A program made the position numbers and the translations under genes. Below the pieces are notes generated by a model, which saw nothing but the letters and a program-made list of their open reading frames with translations, was not told the DNA's origin and did not search any database. From NCBI RefSeq assembly GCF_024734385.1, contig NZ_JANHAP010000014.1, positions 1 to 64,000 of the forward strand: 64,000 nt of DNA, given 5' to 3'. Every line of letters starts with the position of its first letter. Position 1 is the stretch's first letter. This DNA is from Dasania sp. GY-MA-18. GTDB taxonomy: Bacteria > Pseudomonadota > Gammaproteobacteria > Pseudomonadales > Dasaniaceae. Positions 4,083 to 22,815 of the stretch are shown here, piece by piece.

Positions 4083-5740
4083 GGCGTGGGGGGCTTGATG
4101 TTGGGGGGGGTAAGCGCCTGGCAGGCGGCCTGAGTGGCTGGGTTTTCTAGCCCAGCGCAGGCGTTTTGCAAGGCTGTATATATAGTAGTTGAGGCGGTTT
4201 TGCCTAGCTCTACGCCCCATTGGTCAAAGGCGTTAATGTTCCAAATAATGCTGGCGGCGTAGGTTTTGTGCTCGTATAGGGCAACTAGTGCACCCAGTGT
4301 TTCGGGGGTGAGCTTGTCTACGCTAATAATGCTGGAGGGGCGATTGGCTGGCATGGCTTTGTGCTGAGCCAGTAGGGCTGCGTCGTGCTCGCTATAGCCA
4401 GCCTCAAGGAGCTGTTTTTTGACTTGCTCACTGCTTTGGCCGTCCATTAAGGTTTGGGCCTGAGCTAGGCAGTTGGCTACCATATGCTGGTGTTGGGCTT
4501 GATTACTGCTGTGGCTATTTAGCGGCACTATAAAATCTACTGGGATAAGCTGGGTGCCTTGGTGCAATAATTGGTGAAAGGAGTGTTGGCCTATGGTGCC
4601 AGCACTGCCCCAGAGCACCGGTGCGCTGGCATAGTTAAGGGGGCGGCCCTGGCGGTCCACGCTTTTACCGTTACTTTCCATGGTGAGCTGCTGCAGGTGG
4701 TTGGGTAGCAGTCTTAGAGTGTGGTCGTAGGGTAGTACGGCAACATTGCTGCAGCCCCAAAAATTGACATACCAGATTTCCAGTAGCGCAAGTATCACTG
4801 GTAGATTGTGACGGTGCGGGGTGTTGAAAAAGTGCTGGTCCATATCGTGAGCGCCTGCTAGCAGGGCTTCAAAGGTAGCGTAGCTAGTGGCTAAGGCTAT
4901 TGGTAGACCGGCGGCTGACCATAGCGAGAAGCGTCCGCCCACCCAGTCCCACATGGGCAGGATATTATCCTCGTCTATACCAAAGTCTTCGCATAAGTCA
5001 GTGCGGGCTGATATAGCAATGAAGTGTTTGCTGATATCGCTTTGTTGAGAGCGGTCGGTTAGCCAGCGCTTGGCGGCCTTGGCATTGGTTAAGGTTTCCA
5101 GTGTGCCCCATGATTTAGAAATCACTATAAACAGCGTGTTGTCGGGCTTTAATGGGGCTAGGGTGTGCTCTAGGTCGCAGGGGTCAATATTGGTAACAAA
5201 GTGCACTCTGACCTTGCTGTTGTGGTAGGGGGTGAGGGCTTCGGCCGCCATGCGTGGGCCCAGGTCCGAGCCGCCTATGCCTATGCTGACAATATCGGTT
5301 ATGGGCTGGCCGCTAAAGCCTGTCCACTGTTGTGAATGCAGTTGTTGGCAGATGCGTTGCATTTTTGAGCGGCAGTCTGCAGCTAGCTGCTCTTCCTTGG
5401 TCTGAGTGCTGCTTGTGCGTAGCTGGCAGTGCAGTGCTGGGCGGTGTTCGGTAAAATTGACCGGCAGGCCTTGCTCTAAACTATTAATAGCGGCTGCTAG
5501 CTCGCAGTCTTCGGCTAGTGCCAGTAAATCAGCCAGTATGCTCTCGTTGATAAAATGCCTGGAGAGGTTGGCTTGCACATGGCTAGTGCTGAAATTAAAG
5601 TTCTGGTAGCGCTGCTCATCATGGCTGAAATAATCGGCTATGCTTAGCTGTTGTGCGCGAGCAGCTTGATCTATCAGCCTATTCCAAGCTGCTGTATGAG
5701 TAGGGTTGATATGGGATATAGGGTCAATTAACGCAGGCAT
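4079..5740 (-). CDS. pgi: Glucose-6-phosphate isomerase
   Basis: This cytoplasmic enzyme interconverts glucose 6-phosphate and fructose 6-phosphate, linking central metabolism to nucleotide-sugar supply. The 553 aa match the bacterial length. Signatures are IVSIGIGGSDLGPRM, VISKSWGTLETLTNA, WDWVGGRFSLWSA, MESNGKSVDRQG and a C-terminal QWGVELGK region. It is the first gene of a - strand operon with the dehydrogenase and epimerase and is divergent from the eps operon. The last base of a PGI-type signature is conserved, so the enzyme should be active. Confidence 0.95.
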   Translation of the reverse strand: MPALIDPISHINPTHTAAWNRLIDQAARAQQLSIADYFSHDEQRYQNFNFSTSHVQANLSRHFINESILADLLALAEDCELAAAINSLEQGLPVNFTEHRPALHCQLRTSSTQTKEEQLAADCRSKMQRICQQLHSQQWTGFSGQPITDIVSIGIGGSDLGPRMAAEALTPYHNSKVRVHFVTNIDPCDLEHTLAPLKPDNTLFIVISKSWGTLETLTNAKAAKRWLTDRSQQSDISKHFIAISARTDLCEDFGIDEDNILPMWDWVGGRFSLWSAAGLPIALATSYATFEALLAGAHDMDQHFFNTPHRHNLPVILALLEIWYVNFWGCSNVAVLPYDHTLRLLPNHLQQLTMESNGKSVDRQGRPLNYASAPVLWGSAGTIGQHSFHQLLHQGTQLIPVDFIVPLNSHSSNQAQHQHMVANCLAQAQTLMDGQSSEQVKKQLLEAGYSEHDAALLAQHKAMPANRPSSIISVDKLTPETLGALVALYEHKTYAASIIWNINAFDQWGVELGKTASTTIYTALQNACAGLENPATQAACQALTPPNIKPPTP

Positions 5741-11863: not shown

Positions 11864-13444
11864 ATGGATCGTTTCTTAGTTGGGCCTAACAAAATCATTA
11901 CTAAAATTGGGCCTGCTGGTTTATTAGTAGGTGTTATTTTCCTATGGTTATCGGCGTTTTACCTAGATATATATTCTGCGATAAACGTATGGTCAATAAA
12001 TCAGACGTATAACCATTGTTTTTTTGTTTTGCCAGGTGCTTTGTATCTGATTTGGCGGCAGAGATCTGAGTGGGTTAAATTGCCTGTCACCCCTGCTTAT
12101 AATGTTTTGTTTTTGTTGGCTCCCGTTTTGATGCTGGGGTTGCTAGGTAAGGCCGGAGAAGTTCAATTATTTTCACATATCGCGGCATTTTCTAGCTTTT
12201 CTTTGCTGCTTATTCTTTTTTTAGGCTGGCGTATATCTGCAGTTATTCGCTTTCCTCTAGTGTTTATATTGTTTGCTGTGCCAGTTGGAGCAGAGTTAGT
12301 GCCTTTGTTTCAGGAAATGACAGCAGATATTGCTTTATGGTGTTTGGGGTTTACTAATGTTCCGGTTTATCGTGAGGGCTTGTATATAAATATTCCGGCA
12401 GGGCGTTTTGTAGTGGCGGAGGCGTGTTCGGGAGTTCAATTCTTTATAGCCTGCCTAGCGTTTAGCGCTATTTATGCCCACTTTAGCTTCACTTTAGTTA
12501 GGCTTAAAGTATTTTTTATGTTGTTAGCTATTGTCCTGCCAATCCTAGCCAATGGGGTGAGAGTATTTTTGACAGTGCTTGTGGGTCAGTATTTTGGCAT
12601 GGAGTATGCGGACGGTGTTGATCATTTGGTATTTGGTTGGGTCTTCTTTTCTTTTATCTTGCTGTTGTTAATACTGTGTGGTGAGTGTGTGCAGTTGGCC
12701 GATATTAAGTCTAATCAAGAGCCAGCTAAAGTGACTCGCGCTGATCTTATGTCATGGTGGCAGCAAGGACGATGGGGCGGGGCATTTGTTGTCATATTAC
12801 TCCTGATGGTGGCCTATATAGGATTGAAGGAGCTACAAGCGAGTAATAAGCCGCTGCCTGCTAAAATTAATGTGGAACTACTGCCAGCTCATAGTGACAC
12901 TAGCCATTATAAAGGAGGCTGGAGGCCATATTTTTCGAAGTCATCGGACTCTAAATTAATCAGGCTTATTGACAGACCTTTGGCGGGTGGGTCAGTAGAG
13001 TTGTTTATCGCCTGGTATAAGGATAATCAGTCTGGTGCTGAGTTGGTGTCTAACTCCCATCGTATTTTTGATCTTGATAAGTGGAGTGTTATCAGTCAAG
13101 GATATTCGAGTATAGTTATCGATGATCAGGCTACAAGTGTTAACAAAGTGTTGATTACAAATCCTGAGGGAGAAAAGCGAATCGTTTTATATTGGTATGA
13201 ATTGGAGAATACTCGATCTGCTCATCGACTATTTGTCAAATTGCATCAAGCGTTAAATAGGATGGTTGGAGTTACTGATGCCGGAGCAGTTATAGCGTAC
13301 TCATCAGTTTTCAACGGTAAGCCAGATGGGGTTGCGGCAGAATTGGGCCAATACATACCAGAACAATTCTCTAATGTAAGGTCTGCACTGCCTTTTGAAG
13401 TATCAGTTGATAATGAAAAAGGTAGATTTAAAAATGACCATTAA
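11864..13444 (+). CDS. xrtA: Exosortase A fused to EpsI domain
   Basis: This multi-pass inner-membrane cysteine transpeptidase cleaves and transfers PEP-CTERM proteins. The exosortase domain (about 1-285, eight or so membrane segments) holds the catalytic triad: Cys188 in AEACSG, Arg233 in ANGVRV and His254 in DGVDHLVFGW. After a membrane segment near 305-320 comes a periplasmic EpsI domain (about 330-520) with GGSVELFIAWYKDNQ. This fusion is the usual arrangement for XrtA. It lies between the outer-membrane protein and the deacetylase, the standard order. The only likely substrate gene visible is at 38431-39198, about 25 kb away on the other strand. Confidence 0.95.
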   Translation: MDRFLVGPNKIITKIGPAGLLVGVIFLWLSAFYLDIYSAINVWSINQTYNHCFFVLPGALYLIWRQRSEWVKLPVTPAYNVLFLLAPVLMLGLLGKAGEVQLFSHIAAFSSFSLLLILFLGWRISAVIRFPLVFILFAVPVGAELVPLFQEMTADIALWCLGFTNVPVYREGLYINIPAGRFVVAEACSGVQFFIACLAFSAIYAHFSFTLVRLKVFFMLLAIVLPILANGVRVFLTVLVGQYFGMEYADGVDHLVFGWVFFSFILLLLILCGECVQLADIKSNQEPAKVTRADLMSWWQQGRWGGAFVVILLLMVAYIGLKELQASNKPLPAKINVELLPAHSDTSHYKGGWRPYFSKSSDSKLIRLIDRPLAGGSVELFIAWYKDNQSGAELVSNSHRIFDLDKWSVISQGYSSIVIDDQATSVNKVLITNPEGEKRIVLYWYELENTRSAHRLFVKLHQALNRMVGVTDAGAVIAYSSVFNGKPDGVAAELGQYIPEQFSNVRSALPFEVSVDNEKGRFKNDH

Positions 13445-14297: not shown

Positions 14298-15314
14298 ATG
14301 GATAAGAATAAGAGCCTCGCTATGTTTTCAGTTAATCAGCCTATCGCATTGCCTGCTGAACAGCCGCCGCAGTTGATTGTAGTGATTGATACCGAAGAGG
14401 AGTTTGACTGGGGGGCAGGCCCCGACCGTAGTAAAACATCAGTATCAGCTATGCAGCATATAGATAGAGTGCAAAATATTTTTGATCAATATGGCATAGT
14501 GCCCTGCTATGTGGTGGATTATCCCGTAGTTAGTCAAGCACAAGGTGTGGCATTGTTACGGCAGTACCATAGTGAAGGGCGCTGTGAAATTGGTGCGCAC
14601 TTACACCCATGGGTTACGCCTCCTTATGATGAGGAGGTCTCCGCTTTTAACTCCTATGCCGGTAATTTACCCGCAGAGCTGGAGCGGAAAAAATTGCAAG
14701 CTATGGTCGATAAAATTACCGAAGTTTTTGCTAAGCGCCCCACAATCTACAAGGCAGGCCGCTATGGTCTGGGCTCAAATTCAAGCGCTATTATGGAGCA
14801 GCTGGGTTTTGAAGTAGATGTGTCGGTGTGTCCACCTGTTGATTATCGCGCCGATGGTGGGCCGGATTATAGTCGCGCTCATGCTCAACCATTTTGGTTT
14901 GGTAGTGATAATGGCTTGTTGGAGTTGCCGGTTACTGGCGCGTTTGTTGGTTGGGCTGGTGCTTTGCAGCGCCCGCTATATAACATGGCGGGTAAACTGC
15001 AAAAATTTAAAGCTAAAGGCATATTGTCACGTTTATCTGCTGTGGATAGGCTGATGTTGTCTCCTGAAGGGTTTAGCAGTCAAGAGCACATAAAATTAAC
15101 CGAATACTTACTAAAGCGTGGGGTGCGTACTTTTACTTGGAGTTTTCACAGCACCAGTGTTAAACCAGGCATGGCACCTTATGTAAAAACAGAGCAAGAT
15201 TTAGCAGAATTTTTAGATTCATTTAGACGTTATTTTGATTATTTTTTTACACAATTAAAAGGCGAGGCAACGACGCCTAGCTTATTAAAACAAAAATTGG
15301 AGAGTTACAGATGA
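14298..15314 (+). CDS. Second polysaccharide-deacetylase-fold protein (WalW-like)
   Basis: This 338-aa protein begins its domain with LIVVIDTEEEFDWGAG near residue 28. GRCEIGAHLHPWVTPP (putative metal His motif HLH) follows near 98, then KAGRYGLGSNSSAIMEQLGFEVDVSV. This is the WalW-like branch of the NodB superfamily seen in LPS and EPS clusters, distinct from the preceding deacetylase. Substrate is unknown. There is no signal peptide, so it probably acts on the cytoplasmic face. Its stop overlaps the next start as ATGA (15311-15314). Confidence 0.82.
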   Translation: MDKNKSLAMFSVNQPIALPAEQPPQLIVVIDTEEEFDWGAGPDRSKTSVSAMQHIDRVQNIFDQYGIVPCYVVDYPVVSQAQGVALLRQYHSEGRCEIGAHLHPWVTPPYDEEVSAFNSYAGNLPAELERKKLQAMVDKITEVFAKRPTIYKAGRYGLGSNSSAIMEQLGFEVDVSVCPPVDYRADGGPDYSRAHAQPFWFGSDNGLLELPVTGAFVGWAGALQRPLYNMAGKLQKFKAKGILSRLSAVDRLMLSPEGFSSQEHIKLTEYLLKRGVRTFTWSFHSTSVKPGMAPYVKTEQDLAEFLDSFRRYFDYFFTQLKGEATTPSLLKQKLESYR

Positions 15315-17140
15315 AGGTTTTGGGGCTATCACCATTAGATAAAGACGCTACCGTATCCATCGTTGAGGACGGCGTTATTATCTATGCCGCTGGGGAAGAG
15401 CGTTTTTCTCGCGTAAAACAGCAAGATGGCTTCCCCTACGAAGCTATTCAAAAAGCTCTAGATTATACCGGCACCAAAATTGAAGATATTGATGTGGTGT
15501 CCTACCCCTTTATGCCTTGGGAAAAAGAGCAGGAGCTGTTTACAGCCAATATGCAGGTAGAGCAAGACTTTATAGCTAACTTTAAAGGTAATGGTTTAGC
15601 GACACAGGTTAAAGCAGCGAAAAAAAATATACCCCAGCGCACCGAGGGTGTGCATGGTTTGAAAGATCCTAATGAGAAAATGGACAAGGGTTTATTAAAG
15701 CGCGCTTATTTTCGCTTGGCAGGAGCCACTCCAGCTTTTTCTAAACTGGCGGCTAAAAAAGCTTCTCAGCGGTGGTCTGATAATGCATTAGCGTCATTTA
15801 AACAGTGGCAGCAAGAGTTAGATAAGGGGCTAAAAAGCTTAGGGCTTGAGGGGAAGCTAAAACGCATAGATCACCACCTTAGTCATGCGGCTAATAGTTT
15901 TTATGCGAGTGGTTATGAAAAAGCATTGTGCATTACCTTAGATGGTTATGGTACTGGCCTTGCAGGATCGATAAGCATAGGTAGCGAAGGAAAAATAAAG
16001 CGTATCCACGGCGTTAAGTTTCCTTACTCATTAGGGAGCTTCTATGAGCAGGTTACCTCCTGTCTAGGTTTTAAGCCTAGCCGCCACGAAGGCAAAATTG
16101 TAGGGCTGGCTTCTTATGGCGACCCCGAAATCTTGTCTGATATTTTATTAAGCCGTTTTATACAACAAGACGGTGATATTAAAATGTACGAAGCGAATAA
16201 TGTTTACTTTTCGCGTTATCTCGCTGCCCATTTCCCAAAAATCGATGTGGCCGCCGCCTACCAAAAAGTATTAGAAGTAGTAGCAACTAACTTTGTACAG
16301 CATTGGGTAGAAGAAACAGGTATCGATACCGTGGTGCTTTCGGGCGGGGTTACAGCCAATGTAAAATTAAATCAGCGTATCTTTGAAATTGAGGGGGTTA
16401 AACAAATGTTTGTTTACCCCAATATGGGGGATGGTGGCTGCGGCACCGGGGCAGCCCTGTATCACTCTTGGCCGGGTGGTGTTAAGCCCAGTATTAGCAA
16501 TGCTTATTTTGGCCCTGACTTTACTGAACAAGAAATTATAGCCGAGCTGGAAAAAGCGAACTTAAGCTATACGCGCCCCGATAACTTAGCAGCAGAAGTG
16601 GCAGCCCATATCCACGGTGGCGCGGTAGTGGCGCGCTTTGATGGTCGTATGGAATACGGCCCTAGGGCCTTAGGTAACCGTACGATTATGTATCACGCTC
16701 GCGAGCCAGAGGTAAATCAGTGGTTAAATAAGCGTTTAGGCAGAACAGAGTTTATGCCTTTTGCACCGGTCACCTTGTATGAGGCCAGAAAGCGTTACTA
16801 TCACAATATAAAAGGTGCAGAACATACTGCTGAGTTTATGACAGTCACCTTTGATTGTACTGATGAGATGAAACGTGATTGCCCAGCCGCTGTGCATGTA
16901 GATGGCACCGCTAGGCCGCAGTTAATTAAGCGCGAGGTAAACCCTGGCTACTACGATATTATTAAAGAGTATGAAAAGCTAAGCGGTATCTCTAGTTTGA
17001 TTAATACCAGTTTTAATATGCATGAAGAGCCCATAGTCTGCAGCCCCTATGATGCAGTAAGAGCCTTTTTGTTGGGTAATTTAGATTGGCTGGCTATAGG
17101 GCCGTTTTTGGTAAAGCATCCTGAGTCTAAAGCTGTTTAA
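15311..17140 (+). CDS. O-carbamoyltransferase (NodU/CmcH family)
   Basis: This 609-aa enzyme moves a carbamoyl group from carbamoyl phosphate, via carbamoyl-AMP, to a sugar hydroxyl. The N-terminal kinase-like domain shows MKVLGLSPLDKDATVSIVED, HHLSHAANSFYASG (metal His cluster near 193) and LDGYGTG; HEGKIVGLASYG is near 260 and VVLSGGVTANVKLN near 345. The C-terminal YrdC-like domain has RMEYGPRALGNRTI near 447 and INTSFNMHEEPIV. Length and motifs agree with TobZ/NodU proteins. It should decorate the exopolysaccharide, coupled by ATGA overlap to the preceding deacetylase-like gene. Confidence 0.93.
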   Translation: MKVLGLSPLDKDATVSIVEDGVIIYAAGEERFSRVKQQDGFPYEAIQKALDYTGTKIEDIDVVSYPFMPWEKEQELFTANMQVEQDFIANFKGNGLATQVKAAKKNIPQRTEGVHGLKDPNEKMDKGLLKRAYFRLAGATPAFSKLAAKKASQRWSDNALASFKQWQQELDKGLKSLGLEGKLKRIDHHLSHAANSFYASGYEKALCITLDGYGTGLAGSISIGSEGKIKRIHGVKFPYSLGSFYEQVTSCLGFKPSRHEGKIVGLASYGDPEILSDILLSRFIQQDGDIKMYEANNVYFSRYLAAHFPKIDVAAAYQKVLEVVATNFVQHWVEETGIDTVVLSGGVTANVKLNQRIFEIEGVKQMFVYPNMGDGGCGTGAALYHSWPGGVKPSISNAYFGPDFTEQEIIAELEKANLSYTRPDNLAAEVAAHIHGGAVVARFDGRMEYGPRALGNRTIMYHAREPEVNQWLNKRLGRTEFMPFAPVTLYEARKRYYHNIKGAEHTAEFMTVTFDCTDEMKRDCPAAVHVDGTARPQLIKREVNPGYYDIIKEYEKLSGISSLINTSFNMHEEPIVCSPYDAVRAFLLGNLDWLAIGPFLVKHPESKAV

Positions 17141-17170
17141 ATTTTTTAATATTTAACTGTGGCAAGTAAA

Positions 17171-17752
17171 ATGCTTAAAAGAATAATCAATCTAATGTTT
17201 TTTTTGGTGGTAATTCCTTTGCTTGCCTTATTCGTTTTATTGGGCTTAGTTTTTAATAAAAAAAGCTTGTTTATAGGGTTTTCTCAGTTTTTAAGCTTAA
17301 TACCTGGTAAGTTTGGGAGCTATCTTAGAAAGGCTTTTTATAGAGTTGTAATAAAAAGCTGCGGTGAAAGCTGTGTTATTGGTTTTGCTACTCTGCTTTC
17401 AGATGCTGATATTGTAATAGAAGAGGGCGTTTATATTGGTCCACAGTGCAATATAGGTAAAAGTCACATTGCGAAAAATTGCCTGCTAGGTAGCGGTGTC
17501 CACATATTAAGTGGTAAATCTCAGCATGATTTCTCTAGATTGGATGTCCCTATACAGCAGCAGGGTGGCAGCTATCAAAAGGTTTTCATCGGTGAAGATA
17601 GTTGGATAGGAAATGGCGCCATTGTCATGGCTAATATAGGTAGGCAATGTGTCGTTGCTGCAGGAGCGGTTGTTGTTAATGATGTTGCAGACTTTTCAGT
17701 TGTTGCTGGGAACCCAGCAAAGCTTATTAAGCTGCGTACCGAGAACTGCTAG
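17171..17752 (+). CDS. Hexapeptide-repeat O-acetyltransferase
   Basis: This 193-aa left-handed beta-helix acyltransferase has a hydrophobic N-terminal segment (about 6-28) that may anchor it. Hexapeptide turns (DIVIEEGVYIGPQCNIG, AKNCLLGSGVHIL) follow, then FIGEDSWIGNGAIVMANIG and a closing GNPAKLIK. This is the WcaF/CysE-type layout of sugar O-acetyltransferases using acetyl-CoA. An in-frame GTG lies 12 bases earlier (17159); I take the ATG though neither has a clear ribosome site. AT content rises from here on. Confidence 0.83.
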   Translation: MLKRIINLMFFLVVIPLLALFVLLGLVFNKKSLFIGFSQFLSLIPGKFGSYLRKAFYRVVIKSCGESCVIGFATLLSDADIVIEEGVYIGPQCNIGKSHIAKNCLLGSGVHILSGKSQHDFSRLDVPIQQQGGSYQKVFIGEDSWIGNGAIVMANIGRQCVVAAGAVVVNDVADFSVVAGNPAKLIKLRTENC

Positions 17753-17797: not shown

Positions 17798-19153
17798 ATG
17801 CGTTCTATAGTCGTTTTAATATTTACAGCCTATTTTATGATAATGGCTATGAAAAGCAGCTTTGTAGCCATGTTGCTTTATTGGTGGTTTGCAATATTTA
17901 GGCCGCAAGACTGGATTTGGTGGGATGTTTCAATTCTTCGTCTGCCATTAATAGCAGCACTAATATTTTTCATACCGGCACTTTTTAGGGGCTATGTGCC
18001 AAGAATTAAAGATAAGTTGTCATTATGTTTTTTACTATGGATTGTAATAGCTTTAATTGCCAACTTTACAAATGGTTGCACAGTGGCGTCTGGCATAAAA
18101 GCAGCAATTGTTGCAATGCCAGTGTTGATATATACAGTTCTGTTAACAGAGCGGGTAATTGAGACCAAGGCCCATGTTGTAGCTCTCATGCTGACTATTG
18201 CGTTGTCTTTAGGTTTTCATAGCGGGAAGTCAGGTGTTAATTCATTATTGCAGGGTGGGGTTAGTAACTATGGAGCCGAAAATTTAACCGGCTTATTTTC
18301 TGGCAGTAATGCATATGCATTAGGTACGGGAATGCTTGTTTTTTTTATGATTTTTATATATCAACAAGCAAAAAGCAACCCATCGATAATGCCAGTTATT
18401 TTCTCTAAAAACAATAGACTCAAATATTTCAAAATAATTATGCTGATTATTATTGCAGGGTCAATTTATAACATTGTGTCACTGTCATCGCGCGGGGCTT
18501 CTTTGGCTACCTTTGCGGGCTTTGTCGGTTTCTTTATGATGAAGCCTAATGGCGTTAAACATGTATTAATGATACTGCCATTTTTAGTAGTCTCGTTTTT
18601 CATAATACCTCTCCCAGAAGGATATAAAGAAAGGATAGAAAGTGTTTTTGTTGAGGAAGAAGAGCTTGATCACTCTGCCAAGTCAAGGGGGCATTTCTGG
18701 GAAACAGCTAAAAGAATGGCCGATCACAATCCTGTAGGGATAGGTGCAGGGTGCTATTCTAGTTATTATGATTTATATGATTACTCAAATGGGTTTTATG
18801 GTAGTAAAAGATCTGTTCATAGTAGTCATTTTCAGATATTAGCTGAGACAGGTTATATTGGGTTTATCATATGGGTAGTTCTATTTGTAGTATCTTATAT
18901 AAAGCTATTTAAATTAAGGATGATGGCATATCGATTTCATGATTCTTTAGATCCCAATGGTTTTTATAAGCAAATTTCCGAGACATTAATTTGTGCTCAA
19001 ACGGTGTTTCTACTAGGCGGGTCTTTTTATGAGCTCGCCTATTCTGATTTAATCTGGCTAATCTGGGCCGTTGTAATATGCCTGATAAGGCTTATGAATT
19101 TCGATATTGAAAATCTTAATGTGAAAAATGATGGAAAAATATCACGCTTGTGA
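17798..19153 (+). CDS. O-antigen ligase/polymerase-like membrane protein (Wzy_C family)
   Basis: This 451-aa protein has about ten membrane segments. The N-terminal YWWFAIFRPQDWIWWD resembles the putative O-glycosylation ligase family of exosortase A loci (TIGR03097). A loop with SLSSRGA near 230 and a periplasmic segment DHSAKSRGHFWETAKRM near 290 are as in Wzy_C proteins. It should either polymerise repeat units on the periplasmic face or transfer glycan to protein; context allows both, and no other Wzy candidate is visible in the window. Its stop touches the possible GTG start of the next gene. Confidence 0.85.
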   Translation: MRSIVVLIFTAYFMIMAMKSSFVAMLLYWWFAIFRPQDWIWWDVSILRLPLIAALIFFIPALFRGYVPRIKDKLSLCFLLWIVIALIANFTNGCTVASGIKAAIVAMPVLIYTVLLTERVIETKAHVVALMLTIALSLGFHSGKSGVNSLLQGGVSNYGAENLTGLFSGSNAYALGTGMLVFFMIFIYQQAKSNPSIMPVIFSKNNRLKYFKIIMLIIIAGSIYNIVSLSSRGASLATFAGFVGFFMMKPNGVKHVLMILPFLVVSFFIIPLPEGYKERIESVFVEEEELDHSAKSRGHFWETAKRMADHNPVGIGAGCYSSYYDLYDYSNGFYGSKRSVHSSHFQILAETGYIGFIIWVVLFVVSYIKLFKLRMMAYRFHDSLDPNGFYKQISETLICAQTVFLLGGSFYELAYSDLIWLIWAVVICLIRLMNFDIENLNVKNDGKISRL

Positions 19154-19182: not shown

Positions 19183-20775
19183 ATGATTATTGATGGTTTA
19201 AAAATTGGAGAAGAGGTCAAGACTGAGTGTGAGCTTTGTATTGTGGGTGGGGGTGTTGCAGGCATTGTGTTGGCTAATGAGCTTAGTAGTGCTTTCTCTA
19301 GTATCGTAGTCATAGAGTCAGGAAGTCAAGATTATAACGCGCAGGCACAAGAGTTATATGAGGCTGAAAGCCAGCATGAACAAATCCCTAATCCGCTATA
19401 CTCTAGGCTGCGCATGCTTGGTGGATCTAGTAATCACTGGGAAAATAACACCTCACCTTTTAGTCCTTTAGATTTTGAAAAAAGGGATTGGATAAAAAAC
19501 AGTGGCTGGCCTTTGGGGTTTGAGGAGTTAAGTGATTATTACAAGAAGGCGGGATGGTATTGTGGTGTTGGTGATGACGGATATGATCAAAATTATTGGT
19601 CTAAAAAGCTAGAAAAAAATGATCTTGCTGCTGGTTCTCAGGTTTTAAAAACTCAAATATCTAAATATGCTGTGCCGCCGGTTAGGTTTTTTCAGCAGCA
19701 TGGGGATGTTTTGATAAATAGTAATAATATTACTGTTTATACAGGCTTGAATCTTGTTGATATTATATATAACAAAAATAATAAAGATGTTGAGCTTGCG
19801 AAGGCTATAAACACTGGCGGTAATGAGCTGAGTGTAAGTGCAAAAATATTTATCTTTTGTCTTGGGGGTATTGAAAATGCTCGTATGATGTTGGTGTTTA
19901 ATGACAAATATGATAATCAATTAGGGAATCAAGGTGATTCCGTTGGACGTTATTTTATGGAGCATCCAACGCCTAGAGCTGCACAGTTATTGGCGGACTC
20001 CCCCGAAAGGTATAGTTTTTATCTGGGTGAGGAGACGGGGGATAAATTGGTGGCAGGATATTTCTCATTAGAGGAAAGTGTAGTTCGTTCCGAACAAACC
20101 ACAAATTTAAGAATGCCATTACACCCATCTACAGAGTATATGCTCTCCGATGGAATATCATCATATCATATTTTATCTGATGCAATTGCTAAGGGTGATG
20201 TGCCAGAAAATTTTGGCCAACACCTTCTTAACCTTACAGCGGATATTGATTTAGTAGCTGAGGCGGTGTCTAGGAAAAAATTTCAAAAAAGCTTGTTTGA
20301 TTATTCTAAAAACTTCGCTGGATTTCAAATGCCGATGATGATGGAGCAGACACCGCATAGAGATAATCGCATAAGGCTCGGCTCTAAAAAAGACAAAATG
20401 GGTATATCGAAATTAAAAATTGACTGGGAGCTTAAAGAAAGTGATAAAGCTATGGTCTGGAAAACGCTAGAGTTAGCTGCTAACGAAATTGGCGCGCTTG
20501 ATATTGGGCGTATGCGCTTGCTGTATGAGAGGGCGAGCAGAATATGGGGAGATCAGTTAGGTTTTAGTCAGCATCATATGGGCACAACAAGGATGGCTGA
20601 AAACCCTGACAATGGTGTTGTTGATAAATATCACCGAGTATTTGGTACCAATAATTTATTTATGGGGGGATCTTCGGTTTTTTCAACTGGCGGGCATGTC
20701 GCGCCAACTCTTACTATCGTTGCCATGACTATTCGATTGGCGGATTACATCAAGAGGGAATATGCTCATGATTGA
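19183..20775 (+). CDS. GMC-family flavoprotein oxidoreductase
   Basis: This 530-aa FAD-dependent alcohol/sugar oxidoreductase has the FAD-binding CELCIVGGGVAGIVLANELS near residue 16, VVIESGS, and LGGSSNHWENNT near 80. The C-terminal catalytic region shows QHHMGTTRMAENPDNGVVD and STGGHVAPTLTIVAMTIRLA (active-site His). A GTG at 19150 would couple it to the ligase gene but adds a purely hydrophobic head; I choose the ATG at 19183. It has no signal peptide, and the small gene that follows carries a Tat-like one, as in two-subunit periplasmic sugar dehydrogenases. A role in oxidising a sugar of the polymer is inference from context. Confidence 0.85.
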   Translation: MIIDGLKIGEEVKTECELCIVGGGVAGIVLANELSSAFSSIVVIESGSQDYNAQAQELYEAESQHEQIPNPLYSRLRMLGGSSNHWENNTSPFSPLDFEKRDWIKNSGWPLGFEELSDYYKKAGWYCGVGDDGYDQNYWSKKLEKNDLAAGSQVLKTQISKYAVPPVRFFQQHGDVLINSNNITVYTGLNLVDIIYNKNNKDVELAKAINTGGNELSVSAKIFIFCLGGIENARMMLVFNDKYDNQLGNQGDSVGRYFMEHPTPRAAQLLADSPERYSFYLGEETGDKLVAGYFSLEESVVRSEQTTNLRMPLHPSTEYMLSDGISSYHILSDAIAKGDVPENFGQHLLNLTADIDLVAEAVSRKKFQKSLFDYSKNFAGFQMPMMMEQTPHRDNRIRLGSKKDKMGISKLKIDWELKESDKAMVWKTLELAANEIGALDIGRMRLLYERASRIWGDQLGFSQHHMGTTRMAENPDNGVVDKYHRVFGTNNLFMGGSSVFSTGGHVAPTLTIVAMTIRLADYIKREYAHD

Positions 20776-21094
20776 TTTGAAAAAAAGGCAGTTGATAAAA
20801 ATGGCTGCAGCTTTACCACTTTTTAATGCGGCTTTAGTGAGTAGAGCACACACAGAAAAAAGTGATTTTTCGGTATCTGAAATTAATAAGGTGTTAGATG
20901 CGTGGCTAAAAACTATGAGTTTGACTCCACAAGATTATCTGGCAAATAGAAGTGTATTGCCGGGCAGTGCTGATAAAATTCGAGAAATGTCTGTAGAAGA
21001 TTTCAGGAGTGGTAAGACGTTGCACGTTAATGGTGTGGTTCTAAGCTGCACAGAAGCTGCGCTAATAGCTGAATTAGCGAGTGCTTTAAGTTGA
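20762..21094 (+). CDS. Small Tat-like exported partner of the GMC oxidoreductase
   Basis: This 110-aa protein opens with LKKRQLIKMAAALPLFNAAL, a twin-arginine-type signal in which the first Arg is Lys (KR). The mature part ends with DFRSGKTLHVNGVVLSCTEA, a pattern I associate with small proteins encoded beside GMC oxidoreductases. By analogy with subunit 3 of gluconate 2-dehydrogenase it may carry the folded flavoprotein across the membrane. AGAGGGA lies about 5 bases before this ATG, which overlaps the GMC gene by 14 bp. Function is inferred from signal and neighbour. Confidence 0.7.
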   Translation: MLMIDLKKRQLIKMAAALPLFNAALVSRAHTEKSDFSVSEINKVLDAWLKTMSLTPQDYLANRSVLPGSADKIREMSVEDFRSGKTLHVNGVVLSCTEAALIAELASALS

Positions 21095-21141
21095 AATTTG
21101 TCAGCTTTTGTCGGCATCGGCTTTTCTGTGGTGTGCTAGAT

Positions 21142-22815
21142 ATGCTAATGAGTAGGCGCTTCGTGGTTAAGGGGGTATTAATTTGCGTTGCATTGTTATC
21201 TAACGGCCCTTATTTACTAGAGCGTATTTCCGAAATTAATAGCGCTCCATTAATTGCTTTATTTATACTCTTGTACACTTTTTTTCTTATCTCTGTATTG
21301 ATTACATCGGTAATAACTAACGCAATTACCCGTTGGTTGTGCGCTGCTATATATCTCGTGTTTTTTCTTTTTTCCGATGCTTATTGGCGGGTGACAGGTG
21401 GATTCATATCTTATTCGTCATTTATATCGATGGTCAATGCTCATGGCTTCGTTGGTGATGCCATGGAGCAGTATGGTAATTTGTTTTTAATAAGTGGTTT
21501 TTTGGGGGCTTTGCTCTTTGTCGGTTTAGTTATACCTGTAAAAAAATCACCATCAAACTTATTTGTGCTTTTTATTCCGTTAACGTCAATTTTTATATTG
21601 GTGTCAATGCTGTTTATTCGTGGTGGCGATGGTGGAAAGGGTTTGTCTCTGATTTATACTCCAATGGCATACTCAATTTTATTTTTATATGAAAAAGCCG
21701 CTGAAGATAACGGCCCCAGGCTTCCTGTTACTATTGAAACAGCAGGGGTTGAGCAAGGTAAGGATATTGTTTTTGTTATTGATGAGAGTGTAAGAGGCGA
21801 TTTTTTAGATATTAATGCTAATAATGGCGTTTATACGGGGTTAGCTGACGGTGATGTTAATTGGAAATTGTATAACTATGGTTTGGCTGTTGCTGTAGCT
21901 ACATGTAGTGCGGAAGTTAATGTTACCCTCCGATATGGTGGAACAAGAGAGCAATATAAAGCAATTATAGCGAGGCACCCTTCAATTTGGCAGTATGCAA
22001 AAAAAGCTGACATGAAAACTGTTTATATTGATACACAGCGCACTGCAGGCAAGCTTCAAAATTATATGGATTCTGAAGAGTTGTTAAGTATTGATGAGTT
22101 TGTCCAGTTTGATGGTGTAGATATATTGTATAGAGATGTTCTTGCCGCTGAAAAGATTGCAAAATATTCACAGAATGATACGGCTGAGTTTATTTTGGTT
22201 AATAAAATGGGGGCGCATTTTCCAGTTCATGATAAATACCCTGATAACTTTACTTATTATAAACCTGTACTGCGAAGAGGTGGTTTTGTTGGTATTAGTG
22301 ACACTGGTAATAGGGATGGCTTTGATGGTGCTGATGAGTGGCGGCTCTACGTTAACTCTTATAAAAACACGCTTTTATGGAGTGTGGGTGAGTTTTTTAA
22401 AACAATTAAACTGCAGGCCAAGTTGTCTAATTTAATCATGGTGTATACGTCTGATCACGGTCAGGATTTACACCTTGATGGTAGGTCTGGTGTGACAACT
22501 CATTGTAGTGGCGAGCGCGCCAGATCGAATGAGGCTGTTGTGCCATTGGTAGTACTTGAGGGAGGGAAAGCAAAGTTTGATTGGAGTGAGAATTTAAACC
22601 ATAACTATAATGCTGTTAGCCACTTTAATATATTTCCCACATTACTGAAGTTGATGAACTATGATGCCGAAGAGGTGAGTAAAATCTACGGTTACTCATT
22701 AGATCAAAAGGTTGAAGATCCCTATACCTATAATGTTAGATTTAATGCAAGGCTTGGGATGAAGCCGATATGGAAAAAAATGGATCGTGAGGATCCAATT
22801 AACTCCAAAAATTGA
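21142..22815 (+). CDS. Sulfatase-fold membrane transferase (phosphoethanolamine-transferase-like)
   Basis: This 557-aa protein has about five membrane segments in its first 190 residues and then a periplasmic alkaline-phosphatase-fold domain. Metal and active-site motifs are FVIDESVRGDF near 235, a segment VATCSAEVNVTLRYGG where EptA-type enzymes carry their nucleophile, MGAHFPVHDKYP, and YTSDHGQDLHLDG near 450. It probably adds a phospho-substituent such as phosphoethanolamine to glycan or lipid; the substrate is open. The track start is a TTG; the ATG at 21142 precedes MSRRFVVKG and is more likely. It is the last gene of the + strand series. Confidence 0.82.
   Translation: MLMSRRFVVKGVLICVALLSNGPYLLERISEINSAPLIALFILLYTFFLISVLITSVITNAITRWLCAAIYLVFFLFSDAYWRVTGGFISYSSFISMVNAHGFVGDAMEQYGNLFLISGFLGALLFVGLVIPVKKSPSNLFVLFIPLTSIFILVSMLFIRGGDGGKGLSLIYTPMAYSILFLYEKAAEDNGPRLPVTIETAGVEQGKDIVFVIDESVRGDFLDINANNGVYTGLADGDVNWKLYNYGLAVAVATCSAEVNVTLRYGGTREQYKAIIARHPSIWQYAKKADMKTVYIDTQRTAGKLQNYMDSEELLSIDEFVQFDGVDILYRDVLAAEKIAKYSQNDTAEFILVNKMGAHFPVHDKYPDNFTYYKPVLRRGGFVGISDTGNRDGFDGADEWRLYVNSYKNTLLWSVGEFFKTIKLQAKLSNLIMVYTSDHGQDLHLDGRSGVTTHCSGERARSNEAVVPLVVLEGGKAKFDWSENLNHNYNAVSHFNIFPTLLKLMNYDAEEVSKIYGYSLDQKVEDPYTYNVRFNARLGMKPIWKKMDREDPINSKN

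Follow-up and report, generated by a model that had tools for sequence, protein, structure and literature searches.

Why does a locus for exosortase-associated polysaccharide assembly carry a flavoprotein oxidoreductase together with a small protein bearing a putative export signal, and where and on what would such an enzyme act? This question is raised by a 64,000-nucleotide stretch of DNA from Dasania sp. GY-MA-18 (the window), which contains an XrtA locus: XrtA itself and the genes matched by TIGR03027, TIGR03007, TIGR03006 and TIGR03013, among them those for the export protein, the chain-length protein, the priming glycosyltransferase and the deacetylase, all score over the NCBIfam thresholds. 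The genes framing the oxidoreductase are the following:

11864..13444, + strand: exosortase A (XrtA) with an EpsI domain (TIGR03109, 280.7 bits, over the cut-off)
15311..17140, + strand: NodU-like carbamoyltransferase (PF16861, PF02543)
17159..17752, + strand: hexapeptide acetyltransferase-like protein (PF00132)
17798..19153, + strand: O-antigen ligase-like protein, XrtA-associated ligase/polymerase (PF04932, 5e-15; best NCBIfam match TIGR03097, 117 bits, below the 188-bit cut-off)
21091..22815, + strand: membrane sulfatase-fold protein, EptA-like, with phosphoethanolamine transferases as nearest relatives (PF00884, 6e-15; NF028537, 2.3e-11, under the cut-off)

The carbamoyltransferase and acetyltransferase genes both lie 5' of the O-ligase gene, and the oxidoreductase pair overlaps or nearly abuts the glycan-locus genes on either side. 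An earlier note on this DNA had placed the pair between a ligase/polymerase and a sulfatase-fold gene, and the PF04932 and PF00884 matches within an XrtA locus bear this placement out. The pair and the positions discussed below are:

19183..20775, + strand: GMC FAD oxidoreductase, 530 residues, no signal peptide (PF05199, E 3.7e-17; profile match to glucose dehydrogenase alpha, 6a2u, E 2.5e-53)
19435..19437, + strand: His85 codon, aligned by profile with His105, the covalent FAD site of Burkholderia cepacia FAD-dependent glucose dehydrogenase (BcGDH), in the GGSSNHW column
20572..20574, + strand: codon of His464, the conserved GMC catalytic histidine, aligned with BcGDH His476 and invariant in the GMC alignment (A3)
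20701..20703, + strand: Ala507 codon, at the site of the second catalytic Asn of most relatives (Asn in 26/35 paired and 33/43 unpaired rows)
20768..21094, + strand: small Tat partner, 108 residues, in no Pfam or NCBIfam family (ORF overlaps the GMC stop; alternative start at 20762)
20768..20848, + strand: Tat-like signal read from the sequence (KRQLIK motif, hydrophobic stretch, SRA cleavage-like site)
21017..21046, + strand: beta-hairpin motif TLHVNGVVLS (strands 84-87 and 90-93 of the AlphaFold model, pLDDT about 94-96), after which comes the C-terminal helix

The GMC protein combines the FAD-binding GxGxxG motif with the PF05199 domain. Its start at 19183 (MIID...) agrees with the N-termini of its relatives, which mostly read M(I/F/L)(I/V/F)D immediately ahead of the FAD-binding fold, and the GTG start at 19150 offered by the ORF listing is probably not used. 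The description of an FAD enzyme without a signal thus holds, since PF05199 identifies the ORF as real, no signal peptide precedes it, and its relatives likewise begin directly at the FAD fold. At the active site, where a His and an Asn or His form the usual catalytic pair, His464 is in place and the second residue is Ala507. Counterparts of Cys212, Cys213, Cys218 and Cys222, which parts of PMC6719666 give as the 3Fe-4S cysteines of BcGDH, are absent from the window GMC and from the other A3 rows.

The small protein begins with LKKRQLIKMAAALPLFNAALVSRA, in which the Tat motif takes a KR form, and its C-terminal segment DFRSGKTLHVNGVVLSCTEA is the window version of an xDFxxG...GWxLSxTE hairpin-helix motif; the motif Trp (Trp90) is missing and KR stands in place of RR. 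KR signals of this kind are known to function, as in TtrB. The overlap of the two ORFs and this N-terminal reading agree with the earlier view of a small protein directly behind the GMC gene with a KR-type signal. Its AlphaFold model (pLDDT 81, pTM 0.67) consists of helices and a beta-hairpin that is the conserved motif, followed by a helix. Foldseek returned no match to it at E 0.001 or better and VIA reached at best Z 3.0, neither of them a meaningful similarity. The BcGDH gamma subunit was not among the chains shown, an absence that carries no weight against a gamma-subunit fold.

Searched as a single sequence, the small protein was found only in its own genome among 145 order-level genomes, and a family profile was needed. 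In the order-level sample, the genes beside GMC relatives include some for small proteins that share this C-terminal pattern, and a profile of six such proteins matched 14 places in 12 of 369 class-level genomes. At 13 of these 14 places the adjacent ORF encodes a GMC protein, so the motif is not a chance resemblance; the exception (L058, 9102-9626) is a small-family protein with no GMC within the 19.5 kb fetched. A profile built from 34 members matched 11 places in 10 of 398 phylum-level genomes. All five full-length places adjoin a GMC gene, and the other six are weak matches (E 9e-5 or worse) inside larger unrelated proteins, none of them beside a GMC gene; across the order-, class- and phylum-level samples the same genome can occur more than once. 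The C-terminal pattern therefore recurs in small proteins adjoining GMC genes, as had been claimed when it was read as a GMC-linked motif. The twin arginine is conserved in 32 of 34 members, the exceptions being the window protein (KR) and L071 (RK), and a lipobox-like motif is present in 6 of 34. Members occur in at least five phyla, judging by record titles, and the smallest forms have about 60 residues; among ten genomes of the window organism's own family a full-length member is found in one, that of the window itself.

This family appears distinct from described Tat hitchhikers. Pfam and NCBIfam yielded only general Tat-signal models and isolated weak matches, neither PF12318 nor PF13618 matched any of 20 members at E up to 1, and hhalign of the family against 11 PF13618 proteins produced an alignment confined to the Tat motif (2.3%), which suggests no detectable relationship to the PF13618 hitchhiker. 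PF12318 matched in 0 of 143 genomes and in none of the controls, and hence provided no alignment for comparison. Members also vary in architecture. In L038, L096, L098 and L107 minimal partners of about 60 residues are encoded upstream of the GMC gene and comprise a Tat signal, a short hairpin and little else. The partners in L039, L056 and L108 carry a C-terminal extension of about 220 residues, with a repeated NWGP/SDWGP-type unit in L039.

We then related the presence of the partner to the sequence of the GMC enzyme. At least 50 loci came from a scan of named genomes with 15 GMC sequences, and a first count found 33 of 78 GMC ORFs paired (same strand, less than 150 bp) among the matches listed. 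The set used for the tree likewise held 78 GMC rows, 35 of them with a profile-detected partner on either strand; it leaves out ORFs shorter than 400 residues and L062 (a duplicate of L069) and includes the added L135, L136 and L138. In this set, among the matches listed, 32 of the 35 paired rows and 9 of the 43 unpaired ones had His in the column of window His85. Six of these nine unpaired rows (L036, L038, L092, L096, L098 and L107) proved to have a minimal partner of about 60-90 residues that the profile had missed, with an RR or KRR signal and a GW-type hairpin (RW in L098). Seven rows were reassigned as partnered: L036, L038, L092, L096 and L107 by a regular expression run over all unpaired rows, plus L098 and L041. 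Further matches at L103, L110 and L117 were judged implausible by eye and discarded. The L098 partner was found by inspecting His-bearing rows only, which favours the association, whereas L041 is partnered without the His and counts against it.

After reassignment, the 78 rows, among the matches listed, divide into 42 partnered GMCs, of which 38 carry the His, and 36 partner-less ones, of which 3 do. The association ranks first of all alignment columns (Fisher P = 4e-14, uncorrected for phylogeny; next best residue, 3e-8), and partner and His each change about five times on the tree, too few to give an independent-pairs test power. According to parts of PMC6719666, His105 of BcGDH is bonded to FAD, and pyranose oxidases carry covalent FAD at the same His position (parts of PMC6719666 and PMC6581175). 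Comparative sequence evidence thus points to the pairing, the Tat signal and the FAD histidine as likely features of the family, and a His that follows the partner fits co-export of the holoenzyme. Several partner-less GMCs from a single clade, mostly of Burkholderiales EPS loci (L032, L070, L072, L073, L074, L078, L101 and L110), have Cys at this position (GGSSNCW), where a cysteinyl-FAD link might form.

The closest relative of the window pair, L067, shares 49% identity in the GMC and 27-30% in the small protein. Its locus encodes an O-ligase, a carbamoyltransferase, a 338-residue protein, an amidotransferase, a glycosyltransferase and a flippase, in an order that differs from the window, with XrtA on the same contig. 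Its small protein has a full RR signal; the motif Trp and the second catalytic Asn are absent, as in the window, with Pro at the position of Ala507, and His505 (GGHVxPT) is common to both enzymes. These features bear on whether the window GMC is a working oxidoreductase at all. Ala507 where Asn is usual, the KR signal and the missing Trp90 could be read as signs of an enzyme that is decaying or has become a structural member of an assembly complex. We consider this improbable, as the frame is open, the FAD motif, His85 and His464 are all intact, and the lack of Asn and Trp extends to L067. Because L067 combines these traits with a full RR signal, the clade looks specialised rather than decayed.

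The presence of the same pair in other XrtA loci, which the earlier note had raised, is thus seen in L067; in L030 the pair is accompanied by genes for an XrtA-like exosortase, a sulfotransferase-like protein and a small cytochrome c, and L083 encodes XrtD. In L030 the small c-type cytochrome gene (4883-5338) lies directly upstream of the GMC gene and is a candidate electron acceptor. The idea that such pairs generally have a cytochrome c partner was rejected, since among the loci examined it is directly beside the pair only there. In a Shimia locus (L109, 3324-14326) the pair lies near an FAD_binding_4 protein, a UbiA/HAD fusion and ArnC-like glycosyltransferases, surroundings that to our mind recall DprE1-type lipid-linked sugar oxidation. 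In the literature that was searched, no paper describes such a GMC/Tat pair for polysaccharide or XrtA/PEP-CTERM loci.

An exclusive tie of the pair to polysaccharide loci was nevertheless rejected. Loci of at least 10 kb, which are of unequal length, were scanned with profiles derived solely from proteins of the window; at least two glycan-assembly families are present in 5 of 31 partnered loci versus 19 of 34 partner-less loci. Partner-less GMCs are the commoner form in glycan loci, and since few partnered loci show a glycan context, the pair would be a general export module that has entered such loci several times. The frequency of partner-less, presumably cytoplasmic relatives in polysaccharide loci would suit a cytoplasmic GMC with a nucleotide sugar or a lipid-linked sugar as the substrate it oxidises, the small neighbour being exported alone or acting as a membrane anchor. 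We regard this as very unlikely, because the covalent-FAD His, retained by the window enzyme, is missing from most of these relatives.

The same counts lend more weight to an enzyme that is co-exported as proposed but has a small alcohol or sugar of the periplasm as its substrate, the operon position being incidental or nutrient-linked. Of the 31 partnered loci that span 10 kb or more, 26 show fewer than two glycan families, Tat-partnered GMCs have been proposed for 2-propanol or acetol (in parts of PMC8630023), and BcGDH acts on glucose (in parts of PMC6719666). Tight packing against both glycan neighbours in the window, and the fact that L067 retains the pair among those glycan genes even though their order differs, speak against it, and we judge it possible but doubtful.

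A fold prediction of the complex, as suggested in the earlier note, was obtained for a relative, L114, in which the neighbouring small and GMC genes lie in one frame and were modelled as one chain. The best of five models reached pTM 0.84, with 100 of 644 residues at pLDDT <50, no PAE and 4 fused rows, and its hairpin-helix had pLDDT of about 90; the other four models had lower pLDDT (76.7-78.8). By our arithmetic, the pTM is probably above the value expected for an undocked small domain. Alignments mixing small-only and GMC-only rows (A6, A7 and A8) aligned the small proteins to the GMC part and were therefore discarded. The nearest solved folds to the GMC part of L114 are fructose dehydrogenase (Z 39.4), pyranose 2-oxidase (34.3) and BcGDH (33.5).

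The proposal of a co-exported periplasmic sugar oxidoreductase accordingly gains partial support. Its first component draws on comparative evidence, namely the GMC linkage, the conserved RR, the signal-less GMC, the FAD His and a TatC encoded in the window organism's genome, and co-export of the GMC and small proteins is very probable. Its second draws on the nearest solved structures, by analogy with which a sugar-type substrate is moderately likely. Analogy with known systems is likewise what suggests docking of the two proteins, and it also underlies the case for co-export. That the oxidation would target the polysaccharide of this particular locus seems to us evenly poised, the low share of partnered loci with glycan families and the Ala507 of the window enzyme speaking against it; a redox step that drives assembly is a further conceivable role.

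Our best overall explanation, held at about even confidence, is an exported heterodimer of the GMC and small proteins that oxidises the XrtA-locus polysaccharide or its lipid-linked units. The GMC protein would fold in the cytoplasm and bind FAD, probably covalently at His85; the 108-residue partner would dock onto it through the C-terminal hairpin-helix and provide the Tat signal, and the folded holoenzyme would therefore ride through TatABC into the periplasm as a hitchhiker. There it would most likely oxidise a sugar hydroxyl in the undecaprenyl-linked repeat or polymer, beside the other predicted decorations, carbamoylation, acetylation and phospho-type transfer. The KR signal, the lost motif Trp, Ala507 and the rarity of full-length members in the window organism's own family count against this explanation. 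Pfam, NCBIfam and a CxxCH scan of the loci revealed no electron acceptor or multihaem cytochrome c subunit among the neighbours of the window pair, and because no dedicated acceptor is encoded nearby, electrons would pass to a soluble cytochrome c or quinone.

More broadly, we tentatively suggest that this unnamed hitchhiker family marks Tat-exported, covalently flavinylated GMC sugar oxidoreductases, that partner and FAD His are gained and lost together, so that the partner gene reports the compartment, and that the XrtA-locus enzyme oxidises polysaccharide in the periplasm. A further small-subunit family would allow many GMC enzymes to be placed in the periplasm from a neighbouring gene, and, if the flavin link follows the partner, would offer an easy way to tell which flavoenzymes secure their cofactor ahead of export. 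Redox decoration in exosortase polysaccharide assembly, if true, would have no earlier case known to us.

The window locus compares with the XrtA/PEP-CTERM exopolysaccharide locus in matching its XrtA, export, chain-length, deacetylase and priming glycosyltransferase models, with the O-ligase model TIGR03097 under the cut-off. A few GMC dehydrogenases are known to be exported by hitchhiking, and their small subunits fall into two recognised families. Tat-partnered GMCs are already described, in the parts concerned of PMC6719666, PMC8630023 and PMC4650693. The gamma-alpha complex of BcGDH (6a2u, 8grj) resembles the window pair in its signal-less GMC, separate small Tat subunit and covalent-FAD His, and 6a2u is the nearest PDB sequence match of the window GMC (E 2.5e-53). 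In contrast to BcGDH, the window pair has no 3Fe-4S Cys cluster and no multihaem c subunit, and its small subunit is not matched by PF12318. The pair of a GMC and a PF13618 (Gluconate_2-dh3) protein on contig 4 of the same genome likewise has an RR small protein adjoining the GMC gene, but its GMC has the Cys cluster that the window GMC lacks. That pair (82630-84707; L123, L001) comprises a canonical PF13618 RR small subunit and a GMC with the cluster CMHCGFCSGHPC, beside a gene that we take to be aldehyde dehydrogenase-like. Gluconobacter fructose dehydrogenase (7w2j, 8jej), the nearest fold of the tethered relative L114, is a three-subunit membrane complex with a haem subunit, whereas no haem subunit is encoded at the window locus. 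Pyranose 2-oxidase and C-glycoside oxidase use oxygen as acceptor, and we know of no partner gene in the described enzymes; they have in common with the window family a GMC fold, at Z about 34, and the site of the covalent-FAD His.
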